A stretch of 40,566 nucleotides of DNA from Candidatus Peribacteria bacterium (lineage in GTDB: Bacteria; Patescibacteriota; Gracilibacteria; Peribacterales; Peribacteraceae). How positions within the stretch are numbered: the stretch's first letter is position 1; each line of letters opens with the position of its first letter. Below the pieces are notes generated by a model, which made no database searches, was not told the DNA's origin, and saw nothing but the letters and a program-made list of their open reading frames with translations. The DNA is taken from contig CALRCM010000005.1 in the NCBI GenBank assembly GCA_943354555.1, positions 1-40,566 on the forward strand, given 5' to 3'. The translations under genes were made by a program, and so were the position numbers. This document shows, piece by piece, positions 15,864 to 35,872 of the stretch.

Positions 15864-16847
15864 TTATTTCATCATTCTCCGCGCTCTCTCCATAAGTCTT
15901 TTGAGTACATCCTTTGATGCGACCGCGGCGCTCTGTACCGGTGTCGCCGGTTCCGGCACTGCATCAATGACTCTTCCTCCGTAGCGATTCGGCACAAGCT
16001 GCCCTGTGCGCATGTCGGTGATATTGCGCAGGTGCATCTTTCCGATATACGGATCGGAATTCATCGGCGTGTAGTAGAGGCAGTTTTCGAAGTAGTAGTG
16101 CGTCACCTGACTGTGGCGGGTACTTCCTGCCCGCTTGATCGGTTCGCCTCCGTGCAGCAGCGTCGCTGCCCAGATCACCGCCTGTCCTTTTTTCAGTGTA
16201 ACAATGTGTTTCTTGAGTCCTACAGCTTGCACATAGGCTTCCATACAATTTTCGTAGCGTGCGTAGGATTCCCGTCCGGAAGAAAGTCCCAGATCATGAA
16301 AGTCCCACGCCGGCATACGGTGACTTCCGGGGTACACATGGAGCGGGCCGGAGTCTTCGCCGATATCTTCCAGAGCGATCCATACGCCGCACATGAATCC
16401 GTGTGGAACAGAGTGAAAGTGGACGGTGTCGCTGTGGGTATGTTGCTGTGTTCCCACAGGGAAGTTCAGCGTCTGAAAGGGGATCGGATCGCGCTGGTAG
16501 AAGAGCCGCAGCACGCGGTCGATTGCGGGCAGAGTCGCGAGCATTTTTACGTCGTTGTCACTCTTCCATGCATCTTGTACACGCCCTATACCGGCGTACT
16601 TCGGTGCAAGAGTGTTGATGATGCGTGTACAGACAGCATCCAGATCCGCAATTTCCGTATCGATGATCGCATACCCGTCCCTCGCAAAAGCTTCGATCAG
16701 TGTACGGTCCGCTACAGGAAGATTGGCTTCATTGAGTAGCGTCGGAAAAAACGGCGTCATGAACCACGGCATGTTCATCTGCCGGAGACTTGCTTCCGTA
16801 GAGTCGGGACTTGCCATGATCGCCGCTGCAGTTCGCTGGATGTCCAT
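15864..16847 (-). CDS. Phytanoyl-CoA dioxygenase (PhyH) family Fe(II)/2-oxoglutarate oxygenase
   Basis: 327 aa with the double-stranded beta-helix of PhyH enzymes. The iron triad is visible as H138-S-D140 (QQHTHSDTVHF) and H232 (WAATLLHGGEPI), with R244 for 2-oxoglutarate; GVWIALEDIGEDSGPLHVYPGSH is a PhyH signature. Substrate unknown; bacterial relatives hydroxylate small molecules, lipids or natural products. The frame is open upstream to 17174, but that extra N-terminus is low-complexity antisense to the next gene, so ATG 16847 is preferred (ATG 16817 is also possible). It is divergent from the small membrane gene, with a gap of only 27 bp, so the two promoters must overlap. Confidence 0.85.
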   Translation of the reverse strand: MDIQRTAAAIMASPDSTEASLRQMNMPWFMTPFFPTLLNEANLPVADRTLIEAFARDGYAIIDTEIADLDAVCTRIINTLAPKYAGIGRVQDAWKSDNDVKMLATLPAIDRVLRLFYQRDPIPFQTLNFPVGTQQHTHSDTVHFHSVPHGFMCGVWIALEDIGEDSGPLHVYPGSHRMPAWDFHDLGLSSGRESYARYENCMEAYVQAVGLKKHIVTLKKGQAVIWAATLLHGGEPIKRAGSTRHSQVTHYYFENCLYYTPMNSDPYIGKMHLRNITDMRTGQLVPNRYGGRVIDAVPEPATPVQSAAVASKDVLKRLMERARRMMK

Positions 16848-16862
16848 CGGGTGATTGGAGAG

Positions 16863-16868
16863 TAGGAT
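16863..16868 (+). promoter_or_regulatory. -10 box TAGGAT, 6 nt before ATG 16875
   Basis: TAGGAT then acacct then ATG; the leaderless arrangement. Confidence 0.45.
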
Positions 16869-16874
16869 ACACCT

Positions 16875-17123
16875 ATGTCTTACGCTTTCCTTACGATCGC
16901 CGCCGCCGGCTACACGATTCTCATCGGAGCGATCATCCTGAATATCCTCGCCACTACTCTTGGGATTGTGACGTGGTACGGATTTCTGGAGAGCGCCGCG
17001 GCACACGGGTTTTTCGGTGCCATACGTCAGTCGGGCATCATCTCTGTTGTATATCTCTTTGCTCTCTATCCGCTGCTTCTCGGATGGATGGCGTGGGGAG
17101 TGATGGTTTGGGTAGCCAAATAA
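16875..17123 (+). CDS. Small two-helix membrane protein, unrecognised
   Basis: 82 aa with two long hydrophobic segments, about 5-35 (ILIGAIILNILATTLGIVTW) and about 54-82 (VVYLFALYPLLLGWMAWGVM), joined by a short polar loop (ESAAAHGFFGAIRQSG). The helices are rich in Trp and Tyr, suggesting a full membrane span each. No catalytic motif and no family recognised. The start is supported by TAGGAT 6 nt upstream. Divergent from the PhyH-family gene and upstream of the structured RNA at 17175, which has its own promoter beginning 17 bp after this stop. Confidence 0.75.
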   Translation: MSYAFLTIAAAGYTILIGAIILNILATTLGIVTWYGFLESAAAHGFFGAIRQSGIISVVYLFALYPLLLGWMAWGVMVWVAK

Positions 17124-17140
17124 GCCGGATTGACATACAT

Positions 17141-17168
17141 TTGACAATATGTGAAAATAATATATAAT
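17141..17168 (+). promoter_or_regulatory. Strong promoter TTGACA-16-TATAAT
   Basis: Both hexamers match the consensus exactly (17141-17146 and 17163-17168) with a 16-bp AT-rich spacer; start expected near 17175. Nothing downstream on this strand is coding. Confidence 0.85.
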
Positions 17169-17174
17169 ACTCAA

Positions 17175-17656: not shown

Positions 17657-17685
17657 TTTATAGCATTTTATATGATATATGTCAA
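17657..17685 (-). promoter_or_regulatory. Promoter TTGACA-17-TATAAA for the 71-aa gene
   Basis: Consensus -35, ideal 17-bp spacer, 5/6 -10, six bases to the ATG: the clearest leaderless promoter in the window. Confidence 0.85.
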
Positions 17686-17694
17686 TTTCAGGGG

Positions 17695-17704
17695 ATGGTA
17701 CAAT
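17695..17704 (+). promoter_or_regulatory. Extended -10 TGgTACAAT, 6 nt before ATG 17711
   Basis: TACAAT (17699-17704) with TG one base upstream, then tttctc and ATG. Confidence 0.6.
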
Positions 17705-17710
17705 TTTCTC

Positions 17711-18286
17711 ATGAAGACCACTCGCCTCGAGGCATTCAGTGACGGCGTCATCGCCATATTCATCACCGTTATGGTTCTTGCATTCAAGATTCCTGAAGGT
17801 GACGATATCGCAGCGCTCGGACCGACGTTGCCGCTGTTTCTCGCCTACGTCCTAAGCTTCGTGTACCTCGCCATCTACTGGAACAACCATCATCACCTGA
17901 TGCAGGTTACCGATCACGTCGATGGACGCATTCTCTGGGCAAACATGCATCTCCTCTTCTGGCTTTCCCTTGTGCCGTTTGCAACTGCTTGGATGGCTCA
18001 AACACACTTCGCCATGATTCCGACAGCATTGTATGGCGTGATCCTCCTCCTCGCTGCGCTCGGGTATTCCTTTCTGGTCATGGCGATCACCGCTCACGGT
18101 GACGCCAATCATCTCTTGAGAAAAGCCATAGGGCGTGACTACAAAGGAAAGATCTCCCTCGTGATCTATGTCCTTGCCGTTGCGCTCACGGGTGTTCACC
18201 AGTGGATCTCTCTTAGTCTGTACGCACTCGTCGCCATTATTTGGCTCGTTCCTGATCGCAGAATCGAGAGAGTGCTGGGGCATTGA
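17711..18286 (+). CDS. TMEM175-family (DUF1211) potassium channel
   Basis: 191-aa membrane protein with six hydrophobic helices. The family signature RLEAFSDGVIAIFIT (R5, F9, S10, D11) opens the first helix, which lines the ion path in TMEM175-type potassium channels; NNHHHLM and LFWLSLVPFATAWM match the rest of the family. One six-helix repeat per chain implies a homotetramer, as in other bacterial members. The start at ATG 17711 begins the family domain directly and lies 6 nt after TACAAT; an upstream ATG at 17672 would lie within the promoter. The stop is TGA followed at once by TAG. Confidence 0.9.
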   Translation: MKTTRLEAFSDGVIAIFITVMVLAFKIPEGDDIAALGPTLPLFLAYVLSFVYLAIYWNNHHHLMQVTDHVDGRILWANMHLLFWLSLVPFATAWMAQTHFAMIPTALYGVILLLAALGYSFLVMAITAHGDANHLLRKAIGRDYKGKISLVIYVLAVALTGVHQWISLSLYALVAIIWLVPDRRIERVLGH

Positions 18287-19817: not shown

Positions 19818-20393
19818 ATGCGCTTCTTTGCACTCGATACCCGCATCGCAGAAAAGATCCGTCAGCGTTACTGCACGGAAGGGGAGGAGGAGGTGCTGCT
19901 TACGCGGTATCACTGGATGTCTTTTCTTTTTCGCACGGTCCGTGAGATCTGTATCACGATTGCTTTGTTTGTAGTCATTTTTCTGGCCCTCGAATACGAG
20001 TGGCCCTTGTACGAGATCATCGGATCTGCGGCTGCGGTCTGGATTGTCTTCGTATTTTTTCATGTCCTCCGCGATTACATCGACTGGCGCTACGACATGA
20101 TATTGCTGACGACGGAGAAGATGGTGCTTGTCGATCAGACGTCATTCATCCGTCACGAGGAAAAGCCGATTCATCTTGAGAATGTGGGAGGTGTCAGCTC
20201 CTCGACGCAATTTCTCAATCTCTTTCCCTTTGGTACGCTGACGTTGAATCTCAAAGAAGGGCTTGGAGGGGATGCACTCACCCTTCGGTACGTACCCCAC
20301 GCAGAACGCGTGGCTTCTCTCATTTCCGATGTGGTGACGAAGTATCAGCGCAAGGGGCATCTGAAGGAGGGAGATCCTGCAGCTTCTTTATAA
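19818..20393 (+). CDS. Membrane protein with bacterial PH-like domain
   Basis: 191 aa. Two membrane helices (about 38-60 and 64-86; EICITIALFVVIFLAL, IIGSAAAVWIVFVFFHVL) are followed by a cytoplasmic bacterial PH (YdbT/DUF304-like) domain: YDMILLTTEKMVLVDQ, a short strand, ENVGGVSSSTQ, and FPFGTLTLNLKEG. These proteins are common in CPR genomes; the function is not known beyond membrane association. ATG 19818 begins a polar N-terminus; the longer open frame upstream overlaps the tRNA gene in antisense and is rejected. The stop overlaps the uvrC stop by a few bases (convergent genes). Confidence 0.8.
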   Translation: MRFFALDTRIAEKIRQRYCTEGEEEVLLTRYHWMSFLFRTVREICITIALFVVIFLALEYEWPLYEIIGSAAAVWIVFVFFHVLRDYIDWRYDMILLTTEKMVLVDQTSFIRHEEKPIHLENVGGVSSSTQFLNLFPFGTLTLNLKEGLGGDALTLRYVPHAERVASLISDVVTKYQRKGHLKEGDPAASL

Positions 20394-22544
20394 TGCAGAT
20401 TCAAAAGCGCGGTGCTTTAGGCGCTTCTCTCTGTGCGCGTTGCTGAAGCGATGTGCTTCGTCCCGCAGACGCATAAGGAGGTACTTCGCAGGGGATTCCT
20501 GCGGGAGAATCAGCGGATCTTTTCTGCCGCGCACATATACATCTTCCTGTTTTTTGGCGAGAGCGATGACGGGAAGATCAATGTCGATGATCGCCATGGC
20601 ATCGAGTGCGGCGCTCAGTTGTCCTTTGCCGCCGTCGATGACGAGGAGATCGGGACGTGCGGTAAGCGAGGAGTCGACAGTGCTTTTATGTGCTTCGATC
20701 ATCATCGGTATACCGGCAGATCCGCTCGGGTTGCATGCATCTGCAATGTTTTTCGGGGCATTTTCTATGGTGAGAAATCCAATTTCACTCAGAAGATCGT
20801 GCATTTCAGTAGTTGCCGCCGCATAGATTTTTCCAGTTGTTCTTGTGTGGAGAAGAGCGCGGATGATGGCAATTTCCAGCCGTTTTTTACGATACGCTTC
20901 AGCGATCCACATCGCGGAGAGCATCGCGGTCTTTGCATCACAGAGCGTGAGCTTTGCGCAGCCGATGATTGCACCGTCACTGTCGCGGGCGACCATACAC
21001 AGGAAGCCGGTTTTTGCATCTTCCTCGATTGTCGGGAGAATTTTTTCGATGTGTTCTTTGTCTTTTTTTAGAGCCTTGGCAATCGTGATGCCCTTTGCTT
21101 TCCACTGCCCGCGTTCGTCTACGAGGTATCGGAGTCTCCTGCGGAGCACCTCCCGCAGAGATTTGTAATCATCGATCTCCCCATCTTTCACTGTTCGGAG
21201 TGTGAAAGACCGGTACTCCTTGTTTGCTGGCTTGCCGTTCTCCATCACGACCATGCACCCAACCGTCTCGGTTCCGCCGAGGTGCGAGATGTCGTAGCCT
21301 TCGATCCGCTTGGGTGGAGCGTGGAGGTTGAGGGATGTTTGCAGTTCATTGAGCGCGTCTTCGAGGTTGCGTGCCGCTGCTTCCCACGCCGTTTCCTGTG
21401 CACGGAGCTTTTCTTGCGCATTGTTCACTGCTAGTTCAAGCAGATGAGACTTCTTGCCGCGTTCAGGGATGATGATGCGCAGTCTCTTTCCACTGCGTGA
21501 AGTGCACCACGCCTCGAGGAGCAGACGGTCGGGAATATCTTCAGCAATGATGATCACGGGTGGCAAGTCCGTTTGTGCTTCGGTGTACTGCGCAAGGAAT
21601 GCATCGAGTGCTTCGGCAACGGAGTCCGGTTGCCCCTGCAGCGGATGGGATTCTTCATGAATCAGTTTGCCTCCGCGGACTTTCAGCACGACGGCAACGG
21701 ACCGGTTGTTGCTGAGGGCTACAGCGATGACATCGAGATCGGAACCATGAGGATCGGAGACGATCTGGCCTTCTTTTTGATGTTCGATAAAGGCCAGAGC
21801 ATCACGCAGTTTCCCTGCACGCTCGAATTTCTTATCCGCTGCAGCTTTTACCATCAAATCACGTGCTGTGGCGGCAACAGTTGCACGATTCCCTTTGAAG
21901 AAATCCATGACGGCATCGATGCGCTTGCGGTATTCCTCCGGCGTGATTGCCGCGATGCAGAGTCCGTTGCATTTACCGATTTGGTATTCGAGGCAGGGCT
22001 TGAGATTAGTTGCTAGTTGCTGGTTGCTAGTTGCTGATTTGTTACAACGATCAAGCCCGCGTTTGCATGCCTGAAAGCCAAGAAGTAGCTGTAGAAGTTC
22101 CAGACTACGGCGCACTTCCCAGCCTGAGAGAAACGGGCCGAAGTAGCGTGCATGATTGTTCTCCATTTTGCGGACTACTGCGATTGCCGGGCAGATATCG
22201 CGCACGGCTACTTCAAGATACACATAGTTTTTGTCGTCTTTCATCATGACGTTGTACTTGGGTTTGAGCGTCTTGATGAGATTAGTTTCGAGGATCAGCG
22301 CTTCAAGGTCCGAGTTCGTCACCGTCCATTCGATGTCCGCCAGATGTTTTCGTAGTGCCAGTTTCCACGGACCGACGGAGAGGTCCACCTTCGCCTGAAC
22401 GTAATTTCGGAGGCGTTCGCGGAGATTCTTTGCTTTTCCCACGTACAGCACTTCCCCCTTTTCGTTTTTCCAGCGGTAAATGCCGGAGCACGTTGGCGCT
22501 TTTGCGACGCGCTTACGGAGGAGGGGAAGATGGGGGTTGTCCAC
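20388..22544 (-). CDS. uvrC: UvrC excinuclease subunit with inserted GNAT-like domain and no C-terminal HhH
   Basis: Incision subunit of UvrABC nucleotide excision repair. Numbered from TTG 22550 (720 aa; GTG 22544 is codon 3): GIY-YIG nuclease 15-100 (SGIYRW, LYVGKAKNLRERL); Fe-S cysteines C162, C186, C194, C198; UVR motif near 238-255; RNase H-like nuclease with D420 (GYDISHLGG), D639 (VIDGGKGQLSAAL) and H700 (RDEAHRF). Odd features: about 155 residues (477-631) inserted in the second nuclease domain between LREVLRRRLRYL and RPDLLVIDGG, reading as a GNAT fold; 12 extra residues (171-182) in the Fe-S loop encoded by a heptamer array; and an end 20 residues after H700, so the tandem HhH is missing. 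The start could be GTG 22544 or TTG 22550. Confidence 0.93.
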   Translation of the reverse strand: MDNPHLPLLRKRVAKAPTCSGIYRWKNEKGEVLYVGKAKNLRERLRNYVQAKVDLSVGPWKLALRKHLADIEWTVTNSDLEALILETNLIKTLKPKYNVMMKDDKNYVYLEVAVRDICPAIAVVRKMENNHARYFGPFLSGWEVRRSLELLQLLLGFQACKRGLDRCNKSATSNQQLATNLKPCLEYQIGKCNGLCIAAITPEEYRKRIDAVMDFFKGNRATVAATARDLMVKAAADKKFERAGKLRDALAFIEHQKEGQIVSDPHGSDLDVIAVALSNNRSVAVVLKVRGGKLIHEESHPLQGQPDSVAEALDAFLAQYTEAQTDLPPVIIIAEDIPDRLLLEAWCTSRSGKRLRIIIPERGKKSHLLELAVNNAQEKLRAQETAWEAAARNLEDALNELQTSLNLHAPPKRIEGYDISHLGGTETVGCMVVMENGKPANKEYRSFTLRTVKDGEIDDYKSLREVLRRRLRYLVDERGQWKAKGITIAKALKKDKEHIEKILPTIEEDAKTGFLCMVARDSDGAIIGCAKLTLCDAKTAMLSAMWIAEAYRKKRLEIAIIRALLHTRTTGKIYAAATTEMHDLLSEIGFLTIENAPKNIADACNPSGSAGIPMMIEAHKSTVDSSLTARPDLLVIDGGKGQLSAALDAMAIIDIDLPVIALAKKQEDVYVRGRKDPLILPQESPAKYLLMRLRDEAHRFSNAHREKRLKHRAFESAL
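22007..22041. repeat. Five-heptamer array (TAGTTGC) inside uvrC
   Basis: TAGTTGC, TAGTTGC, TGGTTGC, TAGTTGC, TGATTTG: 35 bp. On the coding strand it gives KSATSNQQLATN, between the first and second Fe-S cysteines. Confidence 0.9.
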
Positions 22545-22550
22545 GAACAA

Positions 22551-22585
22551 AATTGAAAATTGAGAATTGAAAATTGAGAATTAAT
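22551..22585. repeat. Five-heptamer array (AATTGAR) next to the uvrC start
   Basis: AATTGAA, AATTGAG, AATTGAA, AATTGAG, AATTAAT: 35 bp touching the first codon of uvrC. On the minus strand the string TCAATT falls 6 nt before GTG 22544. Confidence 0.9.
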
Positions 22586-22611: not shown

Positions 22612-22646
22612 CATTCTCCATTCTCCATTCTCCATTCTCCATTCTC
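22612..22646. repeat. Five-heptamer array (CATTCTC) before the glycosyltransferase gene
   Basis: CATTCTC five times without change, 35 bp, ending 2 bp before TTG 22649. TAGACT (22601-22606) followed by six bases precedes an in-frame ATT at 22613, so the array might itself be translated. Confidence 0.9.
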
Positions 22647-22648
22647 AA

Positions 22649-23458
22649 TTGCCACTCGTCTCAGCCATCGTTCTTACCTACCGCAGTCCGCGTGACACGC
22701 TTGCCTGCGTCAGGGCTTTGCTCGCGCAGTCCATCGGCGACCAACTGGAGGTCATCGTTGTCGACAATCACTCCGATACGGACAGTATCGGCATTCTGCG
22801 GACACAGCTGCCGGCTGATTCCCGTTTGCGGATTGTCGAAACGCGGAAGAATCTTGGTTATGGCAAAGGCAATAACTTCGGAGCGCGGTTTGCCAATGGC
22901 GAATATTTACTGATTATCAATCCTGACAATGTCACCCCGCCAGATGCACTAGAAAAGATGATTGCTGCAATGCACGCCGATCCGACAATCGGGATTCTTG
23001 CTCCGAAGTTAGTGTTTCCAAGCGGCCTGGTACGGGATTCGGCGAGGGCATTTCCCAGTTTTGCCGATGTCTTCATTAAGCGGACGTTTCTCCGGTATAT
23101 GTTTCCCCGTAAAATTGCTGCGTACACAAAAGGTAGTGTTTCCATGGAGCATCCGTCAGAGAGCAATTGGGTTGCAGGTGCTTGTCTGCTGCTCCGGCGA
23201 TCATTCTTTGAGGAACTTCAAGGATTCGATCCCCGATTTTTCCTATTTTTTGAAGATATCGATCTCTGCAGGCGCTGCTGGCAATCCGGCAAACGCGTCG
23301 TCTACGATCCGCGGATCGCTGTCGCTGACCGGGAGCATCGACTCAGTGAGGGGGGGATTATGTCTATTTTTACGAAAAAGACCGTTCGGTGGCACCTGCT
23401 CAGTGCGGTGAAGTATTTTTGGAAGTGGAGGGGGGTACCAGCGCCACATTCCAGGTAG
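22649..23458 (+). CDS. GT2-family glycosyltransferase, rhamnosyltransferase-like
   Basis: 269 aa, GT-A fold, predicted to transfer a sugar from a nucleotide sugar during cell-surface polysaccharide synthesis. Motifs: PLVSAIVLTYRSPRDTL (strand 1), VIVVDNHSDTDS, NLGYGKGNNFG, LLIINPDN (the DxD-like site), NWVAGACLLLRRSFFEELQGFD and FFEDIDLCRRCWQSG with the catalytic-type ED. It has the size and order of WbbL-type rhamnosyltransferases; donor and acceptor are unknown. The start is uncertain: TTG 22649 directly before PLVSAIV, or ATT 22613 within the heptamer array. It is divergent from uvrC across about 100 bp that hold two heptamer arrays. Confidence 0.88.
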   Translation: MPLVSAIVLTYRSPRDTLACVRALLAQSIGDQLEVIVVDNHSDTDSIGILRTQLPADSRLRIVETRKNLGYGKGNNFGARFANGEYLLIINPDNVTPPDALEKMIAAMHADPTIGILAPKLVFPSGLVRDSARAFPSFADVFIKRTFLRYMFPRKIAAYTKGSVSMEHPSESNWVAGACLLLRRSFFEELQGFDPRFFLFFEDIDLCRRCWQSGKRVVYDPRIAVADREHRLSEGGIMSIFTKKTVRWHLLSAVKYFWKWRGVPAPHSR

Positions 23459-25721: not shown

Positions 25722-25756
25722 AATTGAGAATTGAAAATTGAAAATTGAAAATTGTC
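25722..25756. repeat. Five-heptamer array (AATTGAA) before hpf
   Basis: AATTGAG, AATTGAA, AATTGAA, AATTGAA, AATTGTC (last unit partial): 35 bp. Almost the same unit as at 22551 and 35206. Confidence 0.88.
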
Positions 25757-35053: not shown

Positions 35054-35872
35054 GTGTCTCTGAGCTTCAGCCAACTTTCTTGCTATAAGCGCTGTCCCTG
35101 TCAGTACGAGTATTGCTACATAAAAAAAATTCCCAAAGGTGTTTCCGAGGCAGAGGCGTTCGGGTCGGCAATCCATAATACGTTGAAAAAGTGGGGGGAG
35201 TCGGAAATTGAAAATGGAAAATTGAAAATTGAAAATTCAGAAAAGCAATTGGAGATGTTTGCGAAAGAGATTCCTTCTGAAAGTCGACAATTGACAGCTC
35301 AAAGCCTGATCGCCCTTTGGCACCAGAGTTGTCCGACGAATGCGTACGCCACACGTTTTGAAGCCGATGCGGCGCGGATGCGGGGAGAGCAGTTGATGGA
35401 ATTGTTTTATACATGGTGGAGTGAGCGGCCACGCGAGGTTGTTGCGGTGGAGAAGGGATTCTCGATCGCAATAAATGATTCGTCACAGAATCAACCATTG
35501 CAGAAGATTATTCTCACGGGCCGCTTCGATCGCATCGCGCGCACACCGGAAGGTTTGCATGTCATCGATTTCAAGACCTCACTGCCACGTACTCAGGATG
35601 ACGTGGATGCCGATTTGCAGCTGAGTATCTATGCACTTGCGTTGCAGCAGGATTTCGGTGAGCTTCCTACTGCATTATCGTTTTTGCATCTGACAGAAGA
35701 CGGCATTGTGGAAATGCATACGCATCGTAGTGAAGGACAGGTGCGAGATTCCATCAAACAGATCACGGCATTCCATGGGCGGATGGAGAACAAGGATTTT
35801 CATCCGACACCGTCATTGATGGTATGCAAGAGGTGTCCCTACAGAGGGATTTGTGATGTGGCGGCGGTGTAG
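35054..35872 (+). CDS. RecB/Cas4-like PD-(D/E)XK nuclease with Fe-S cysteines
   Basis: 272 aa, single-domain exonuclease-like protein. The nuclease core is seen in LTGRFDRI (D159) and VIDFKTS (D172, K174), then QLSIYALALQQDFG. Four cysteines placed as in Cas4/AddB Fe-S nucleases: one near the N-terminus in SCYKRCPCQYEY (C14) and three at the end, C258-x2-C261-x5-C267 (CKRCPYRGIC). No CRISPR array or cas gene is nearby, so a role in DNA repair or recombination is more likely. A five-heptamer array at 35206-35240 is translated as SEIENGKLKIENSE near residues 51-63. GTG start; the reading frame ends with the TAG supplied by hairpin copy C. Confidence 0.88.
   Translation: MSLSFSQLSCYKRCPCQYEYCYIKKIPKGVSEAEAFGSAIHNTLKKWGESEIENGKLKIENSEKQLEMFAKEIPSESRQLTAQSLIALWHQSCPTNAYATRFEADAARMRGEQLMELFYTWWSERPREVVAVEKGFSIAINDSSQNQPLQKIILTGRFDRIARTPEGLHVIDFKTSLPRTQDDVDADLQLSIYALALQQDFGELPTALSFLHLTEDGIVEMHTHRSEGQVRDSIKQITAFHGRMENKDFHPTPSLMVCKRCPYRGICDVAAV
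35206..35240. repeat. Five-heptamer array (AATTGAA) inside the nuclease gene
   Basis: AATTGAA, AATGGAA, AATTGAA, AATTGAA, AATTCAG: 35 bp kept in frame, encoding a polar charged stretch. Confidence 0.9.

Follow-up and report, generated by a model that had tools for sequence, protein, structure and literature searches.

A GNAT-fold domain inserted in the RNase H nuclease domain of Peribacteria UvrC and its apparent exchange between genera

The housekeeping nuclease UvrC is usually considered to have a conserved architecture. The window analyzed here, a 40,566-nucleotide stretch of Candidatus Peribacteria bacterium DNA (contig CALRCM010000005.1, GenBank assembly GCA_943354555.1), contains on its minus strand an open reading frame at 20388..22550, which starts with TTG and encodes excinuclease ABC subunit C (UvrC) with an inserted domain (720 amino acids plus stop). 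The full-length family profile TIGR00194 scores 445.5 bits against this protein, above its cut-off of 285.45, and this uvrC match is the only one within the 1.16-Mb, 70-contig genome. On the same strand, the gene encodes a GIY-YIG nuclease domain (residues 22-100, 22251..22487; PF01541, E 4e-11; structural match 1yd6, Z 15.2), a weak match to the UvrB-binding UVR motif at residues 228-258 (PF02151, 16.3 bits vs a cut-off of 21.5), and a UvrC RNase H-like region (residues 271-384, 21399..21740; PF22920, E 2e-24). The RNase H endonuclease domain that follows is matched by PF08459 in two pieces (E 2.5e-44) with residues 473-633 in between; part 1 (residues 405-472, 21135..21338) contains D420, and part 2 (residues 633-711, 20418..20654; structural match 8b0q) contains D639 and H700. 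The inserted segment (residues 473-633, 20652..21134) begins after R472, the end of an LRRR sequence, and extends up to P633 of P633DLLVIDGGKGQL. It is absent in insert-less relatives, which have 10-32 residues at this site (L052, L053, L057, L116, and L117). According to the alignment and the model, the insertion loop lies on the RNase H surface, between the helix after the D420 strands and the strand bearing D639. In an alignment of 60 relatives, D420 and D639 are invariant and H700 is conserved in at least 90%, and the window protein has the complete catalytic D-D-H set; a reading of the DNA made from the sequence alone (the sequence-only reading) had noted that these residues are kept in an open frame, and both UvrC nucleases are indeed intact.

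The neighboring genes encode a phytanoyl-CoA dioxygenase-like protein (15864-17174, minus strand) and a TMEM175-like potassium channel (17672-18286, plus strand), and no operon link of either to uvrC was seen. Short tandem repeats with a 7-base period (TAGTTGC, AAAATTG, CATTCTC, and AATTGAA) are present in the window at 22007-22035, 22549-22582, 22612-22650, 25722-25754, and 35205-35237. The repeat at 22007-22035 lies in frame inside uvrC, in the variable linker of a Cys-rich region (TSNQQLAT), and those at 22549 and 22612 constitute a 24-nt inverted repeat immediately upstream of the gene.

Canonical UvrCs, such as those of Thermotoga maritima (2NRT), Deinococcus radiodurans (8B0Q), and E. 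coli, resemble the window UvrC in having GIY-YIG and RNase H nucleases with their catalytic residues. They differ from it in that the window RNase H domain is split by a segment of about 160 residues with a GNAT fold, and in that the C-terminal HhH domain is missing in the window species, where the protein stops at residue 720, before the HhH, as had been stated from the sequence. Among the relatives surveyed here, the C-terminal (HhH)2 is common but repeatedly lost, and it was not counted as required for UvrC membership; L001 and L002 lack it, and the congeners L003-L005 have it. The (HhH)2 is also missing in various other UvrCs, with or without the GNAT domain, and is kept in most of the GNAT-bearing ones. 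The suggestion that the GNAT domain substitutes for the missing HhH is thereby ruled out, as the two vary independently and L069 has lost the HhH without having a GNAT domain.

The insert, which the sequence-only reading had placed at residues 477-631 (about 155 residues) and described as GNAT-like, was delimited correctly to within a few residues, and the GNAT-fold domain proper covers residues 487-621 (20688..21092, minus strand; AlphaFold2 model, Foldseek, and VIA-align). The AlphaFold2 model of the insert, built with 51 relatives, shows the GNAT order of elements (pLDDT 88.9, pTM 0.82). A Foldseek search with this model returned acetyltransferase-fold entries throughout the top 50, the best being 3d8p (E 9.5e-7), and VIA-align superposed the model alone on GNAT structures with Z 15.1. 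In the model of full-length UvrC (pLDDT 90.6, pTM 0.71), residues 487-621 match GNATs with Z 14.8, and the RNase H half aligns with 8b0q over 163 residues at 1.6 A (Z 24.7; model residues 395..711) with the insert skipped. The insert profile also picks up solved GNATs from sequence alone (ElaA, E 1.2e-8). PF00583, the Pfam GNAT family, matches 43/51 inserts, with a best GNAT-family E of 1e-13; the window insert on its own is borderline (E 0.0004, 21.0 bits vs a cut-off of 20.7). As judged from its recurrence as a homologue in relatives and from the PF00583 matches, the insert is far beyond chance, and the models allow the window insert to be assigned to the GNAT fold with confidence.

The fold and order of elements in the insert are those of GNAT acetyltransferases (3d8p, 5jph, GCN5/PCAF, RimI, and ElaA; Z 13-15), from which it differs in being situated in a nuclease. 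A further difference is found in the CoA-binding motif of GNATs, R/Q-x-x-G-x-G/A, whose central Gly is K, R, or H in 41/68 UvrC inserts and Gly in only 9/68, vs Gly in 13/15 stand-alone GNATs. By the numbering of the L006 insert, R71 is kept in 47 of the 68 UvrC GNATs, G72 in 46, G76 in 46, and Tyr104 in 56; all four core residues are found in 41/64 inserts, and two or fewer in 18/64. In the window copy, neither of the two motif glycines nor the Tyr is present. Its acetyl-CoA loop, correctly read beforehand as RKKRLE (residues 554-559, 20874..20891, minus strand), is degenerate where most relatives have R-G-x-K-L-G, and the general-acid Tyr before GF is replaced by Leu (L-L in place of Y-Y). 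The congener L002 has also lost the motif and the Tyr, and the congeners L003-L005 are intact. The window insert is thus very probably a pseudo-acetyltransferase, as its residues indicate. The remark that the domain may be non-catalytic is therefore probable for the window copy, but cannot be extended to the family, since R-G-x-K-L-G and the Tyr persist in most relatives; their inserts probably can still bind acyl-CoA. Accordingly, it is conceivable, though somewhat unlikely, that in most of the class the domain is an active or sensing acetyltransferase, which would bind acetyl-CoA, acetylate UvrC, UvrB, or another NER partner, and tie incision to the acetyl-CoA level, the window copy being a recent loss. 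The joint retention of R, G, G/A, and Tyr in the 41 complete inserts is consistent with such an activity, as are the nearest folds, which are acetyltransferases, some solved with CoA. The basic residue that mostly replaces the central Gly argues against it, as do the loss of the core in 18 inserts and the several outright losses of the domain.

The insert is found well beyond this one assembly. Within the class, 276/288 genomes match the protein, many over its full length with the insert, and the insert is carried by extracted UvrC sequences from many families of the class. In the window's family, 71 of the 74 genomes searched have a match, and most of the family's UvrCs contain the insert; together with the many families of the class, this rules out an artefact of a single assembly. 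A homologue survey of this kind had been proposed as a check, and neither of the two contrary outcomes named beforehand, the lack of a GNAT fold and an insert in one assembly only, occurred. In a scan with a narrower profile, 9/10 of the named loci bearing the insert were from Peregrinibacteria, Peribacteria, or Peribacteraceae. In a phylum-wide sample of 380 genomes, the profile of the insert with its flanks was matched over its full length only within the class and in two genomes of family f50; elsewhere in the phylum, among the matches listed, UvrCs that match the whole of TIGR00194 have open frames of about 540-770 amino acids. The two f50 proteins (L081 and L082, genomes G305 and G341) are GNAT-bearing UvrCs outside the class, this being the sole such family in the phylum sample, and may reflect either transfer or deeper ancestry. 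In a tree that combines the class inserts with stand-alone GNATs, 3 label changes are needed, which is compatible with a single origin as well as with several. The GNAT module is old in the class.

Inheritance of the insert within the window's family departs from that of the surrounding gene. Same-genus pairs fall into two classes: in some, the insert identity is similar to that of the flank (0.91/0.91 for L070/L139, 0.88/0.91 for L146/L148, and 0.79/0.86 for L028/L142), and in others it is far lower, as in the discordant pairs L003/L004 (0.39/0.86), L027/L030 (0.38/0.82), L147/L150 (0.38/0.83), and L130/L143 (0.44/0.82); overall, the discordant same-genus pairs show 0.28-0.50 in the insert vs 0.7-0.86 in the flank. 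Along 28 discordant pairs, identity is about 0.9 before RR; 5-10 residues beyond RR it has fallen to 0.36, and at PDLL it is back at 0.95, so that the borders of exchange coincide with the domain borders. In the backbone tree, from which the insert was left out, 15/15 multi-member genera of the window's family hold together, and two insert-length control segments of UvrC keep the genera together with 13 changes for 14 genera, which is the minimum. The insert tree requires 21 changes in a careful analysis or 19 in a quick one and splits 7/14 genera (g1, g8, g11, g16, g19, g20, and g32). In AU tests, genus monophyly of the insert is rejected for six genera, with p values as follows: g16 (9e-7), g20 (4e-4), g8 (1e-3), g32 (0.010), g19 (0.015), and g1 (0.03); the genus labels were given beforehand and the genera for these tests were picked after the tree had been seen, and of the seven considered only g16, g20, and g8 pass strict correction. 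Strongly supported insert groups unite members of different genera, namely L010 (g20) with L140 (g465) and L141 (g16) at 100/99, and L021 (g29) with L147 (g32) at 100/98.

An account without exchange, in which vertical inheritance combined with very fast and uneven evolution of the insert makes same-genus copies look unrelated, is very unlikely. The end branches are indeed longer in the insert tree than in the backbone (medians 0.40 vs 0.17), and long branches of decayed, faster-evolving inserts could mimic exchange. However, the four discordant pairs named above have intact motifs and other same-genus pairs are fully concordant, and the cross-genus groups and the AU rejections for several genera also speak against this account. 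These data show statistically that, in the window's family, relatives of the inserts of other genera have repeatedly taken the place of the resident insert, and that the rest of the gene is inherited normally. Weighing against exchange, the analysis found neither a very recent swap between a near-identical donor and acceptor nor any recombination machinery or mobile-element ends. The GC content of the insert is on average about 5 points below that of the rest; this was ruled out as a mark of swapped copies, being a general property of the inserts.

The same loop has other contents in some relatives. In L055 (1981-2553, genome G006), it contains an aminoglycoside-adenylyltransferase-like nucleotidyltransferase domain (PF10706, 28.7 bits, cut-off 21), and G128, a member of the same genus, shows an almost gapless junction at the loop without the nucleotidyltransferase. 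In L051 (2042-3037, genome G142), two tandem GNAT domains are present in a UvrC open frame of 1082 residues. Genus g13 and a neighbor (L029, L126, L131, L135, L137, and L153) share a highly diverged insert of about 146 residues with weak GNAT similarity left. Short loops of 13-27 residues are found in L052, L053, L057, L069, and L145, and shortened relics or partial inserts in L068 and L138. This repeated loss argues for dispensability of the insert. A nearly neutral passenger is one possible reading, though an unlikely one: the loop would accept whatever compact domain lies in frame, with the insert arriving, decaying, and leaving much as in an intein-like or homing-like cycle and having no function in repair. 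This reading fits the variety met at the one site, which holds domains of different types, relics, or almost nothing; it also fits the insert-flank discordance and the open frames of decayed copies. On the other hand, frames remain open, the GNAT core is kept in most inserts across class-level divergence, and no endonuclease or splicing motif was seen in the inserts; moreover, the few pairs with a computable dS gave insert dN/dS values of 0.09-0.21, dS being saturated in most insert pairs inside the window's genus. A tentative proposal, less likely than not, is a variable domain slot, in which whole folded domains (GNAT variants, tandem GNATs, and a nucleotidyltransferase) are swapped into one loop of a repair nuclease that is otherwise inherited vertically. 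Selection would then favor variation at the loop itself, for instance as a means of retuning incision or of evading a UvrC inhibitor.

The explanation that we favor, with a probability somewhat better than even, is that the permissive RNase H loop of a two-nuclease UvrC hosts an exchangeable, repeatedly decaying GNAT-fold module with an auxiliary contact or regulatory role. The RNase H surface loop would tolerate the accessory module, and its replacement would presumably proceed by import of DNA from relatives, followed by recombination in the conserved flanks. As far as sequence and models indicate its function, the module would most likely serve next to the 5' nuclease as an auxiliary surface for contact or regulation, directed toward DNA phosphates or a partner protein. 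As the window insert has neither the CoA loop nor the catalytic residues, any role left to it would be by contact and not by acetylation. Basic residues are suggestive in this respect: positions 50, 74, and 81 carry a basic residue in 60-74% of inserts vs 0-7% of stand-alone GNATs, the window copy has K/R at positions 9, 50, 74, 81, and 91 (K, K, R, R, and K) despite its lost core, and positions 9, 81, and 91 remain basic in 67-94% of decayed copies (n=18). The retention of these insert-specific positions in decayed copies hints at a contact role with DNA; the basic residues could instead serve UvrC-internal contacts or bind the CoA phosphate.

The exchange of target-recognition domains in HsdS of type I restriction systems likewise replaces single domains in a gene that is otherwise conserved. 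The UvrC case differs in that the insert has no known recognition function, the host gene encodes a repair nuclease, and exchange occurs between genera. In a 2006 survey of GIY-YIG proteins, UvrC was described as C4-UvrBb-EndoV-HhH, and the word acetyltransferase is absent (PMC1564403). A conserved signature insert specific to Deinococcus UvrC consists of 16 residues in a surface-exposed loop (PMC5867870); it also lies in a surface loop of UvrC, but is too short for a GNAT-like domain. Neither a GNAT-bearing UvrC nor a UvrC insertion in the Candidate Phyla Radiation was found in open-licence literature, and an exchangeable inserted domain in UvrC is undescribed within the open-access literature searched; earlier notice elsewhere is possible. 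In H. pylori, short recombination imports need UvrC (PMC9426483), and a link to DNA import is therefore conceivable, if speculative. The hosts are a group of ultra-small uncultured bacteria (Peribacteria/Peregrinibacteria), and their UvrC indicates that exchangeable modules can be part of a core repair enzyme, in this case a folded, enzyme-like domain in the 5' nuclease that is old in the whole class and yet replaced between genera with domain-precise borders. Two questions are thereby made testable, namely, whether incision is regulated by acyl-CoA or by a contact module, and which forces lie behind the exchange of domains in minimal, uncultured bacteria.
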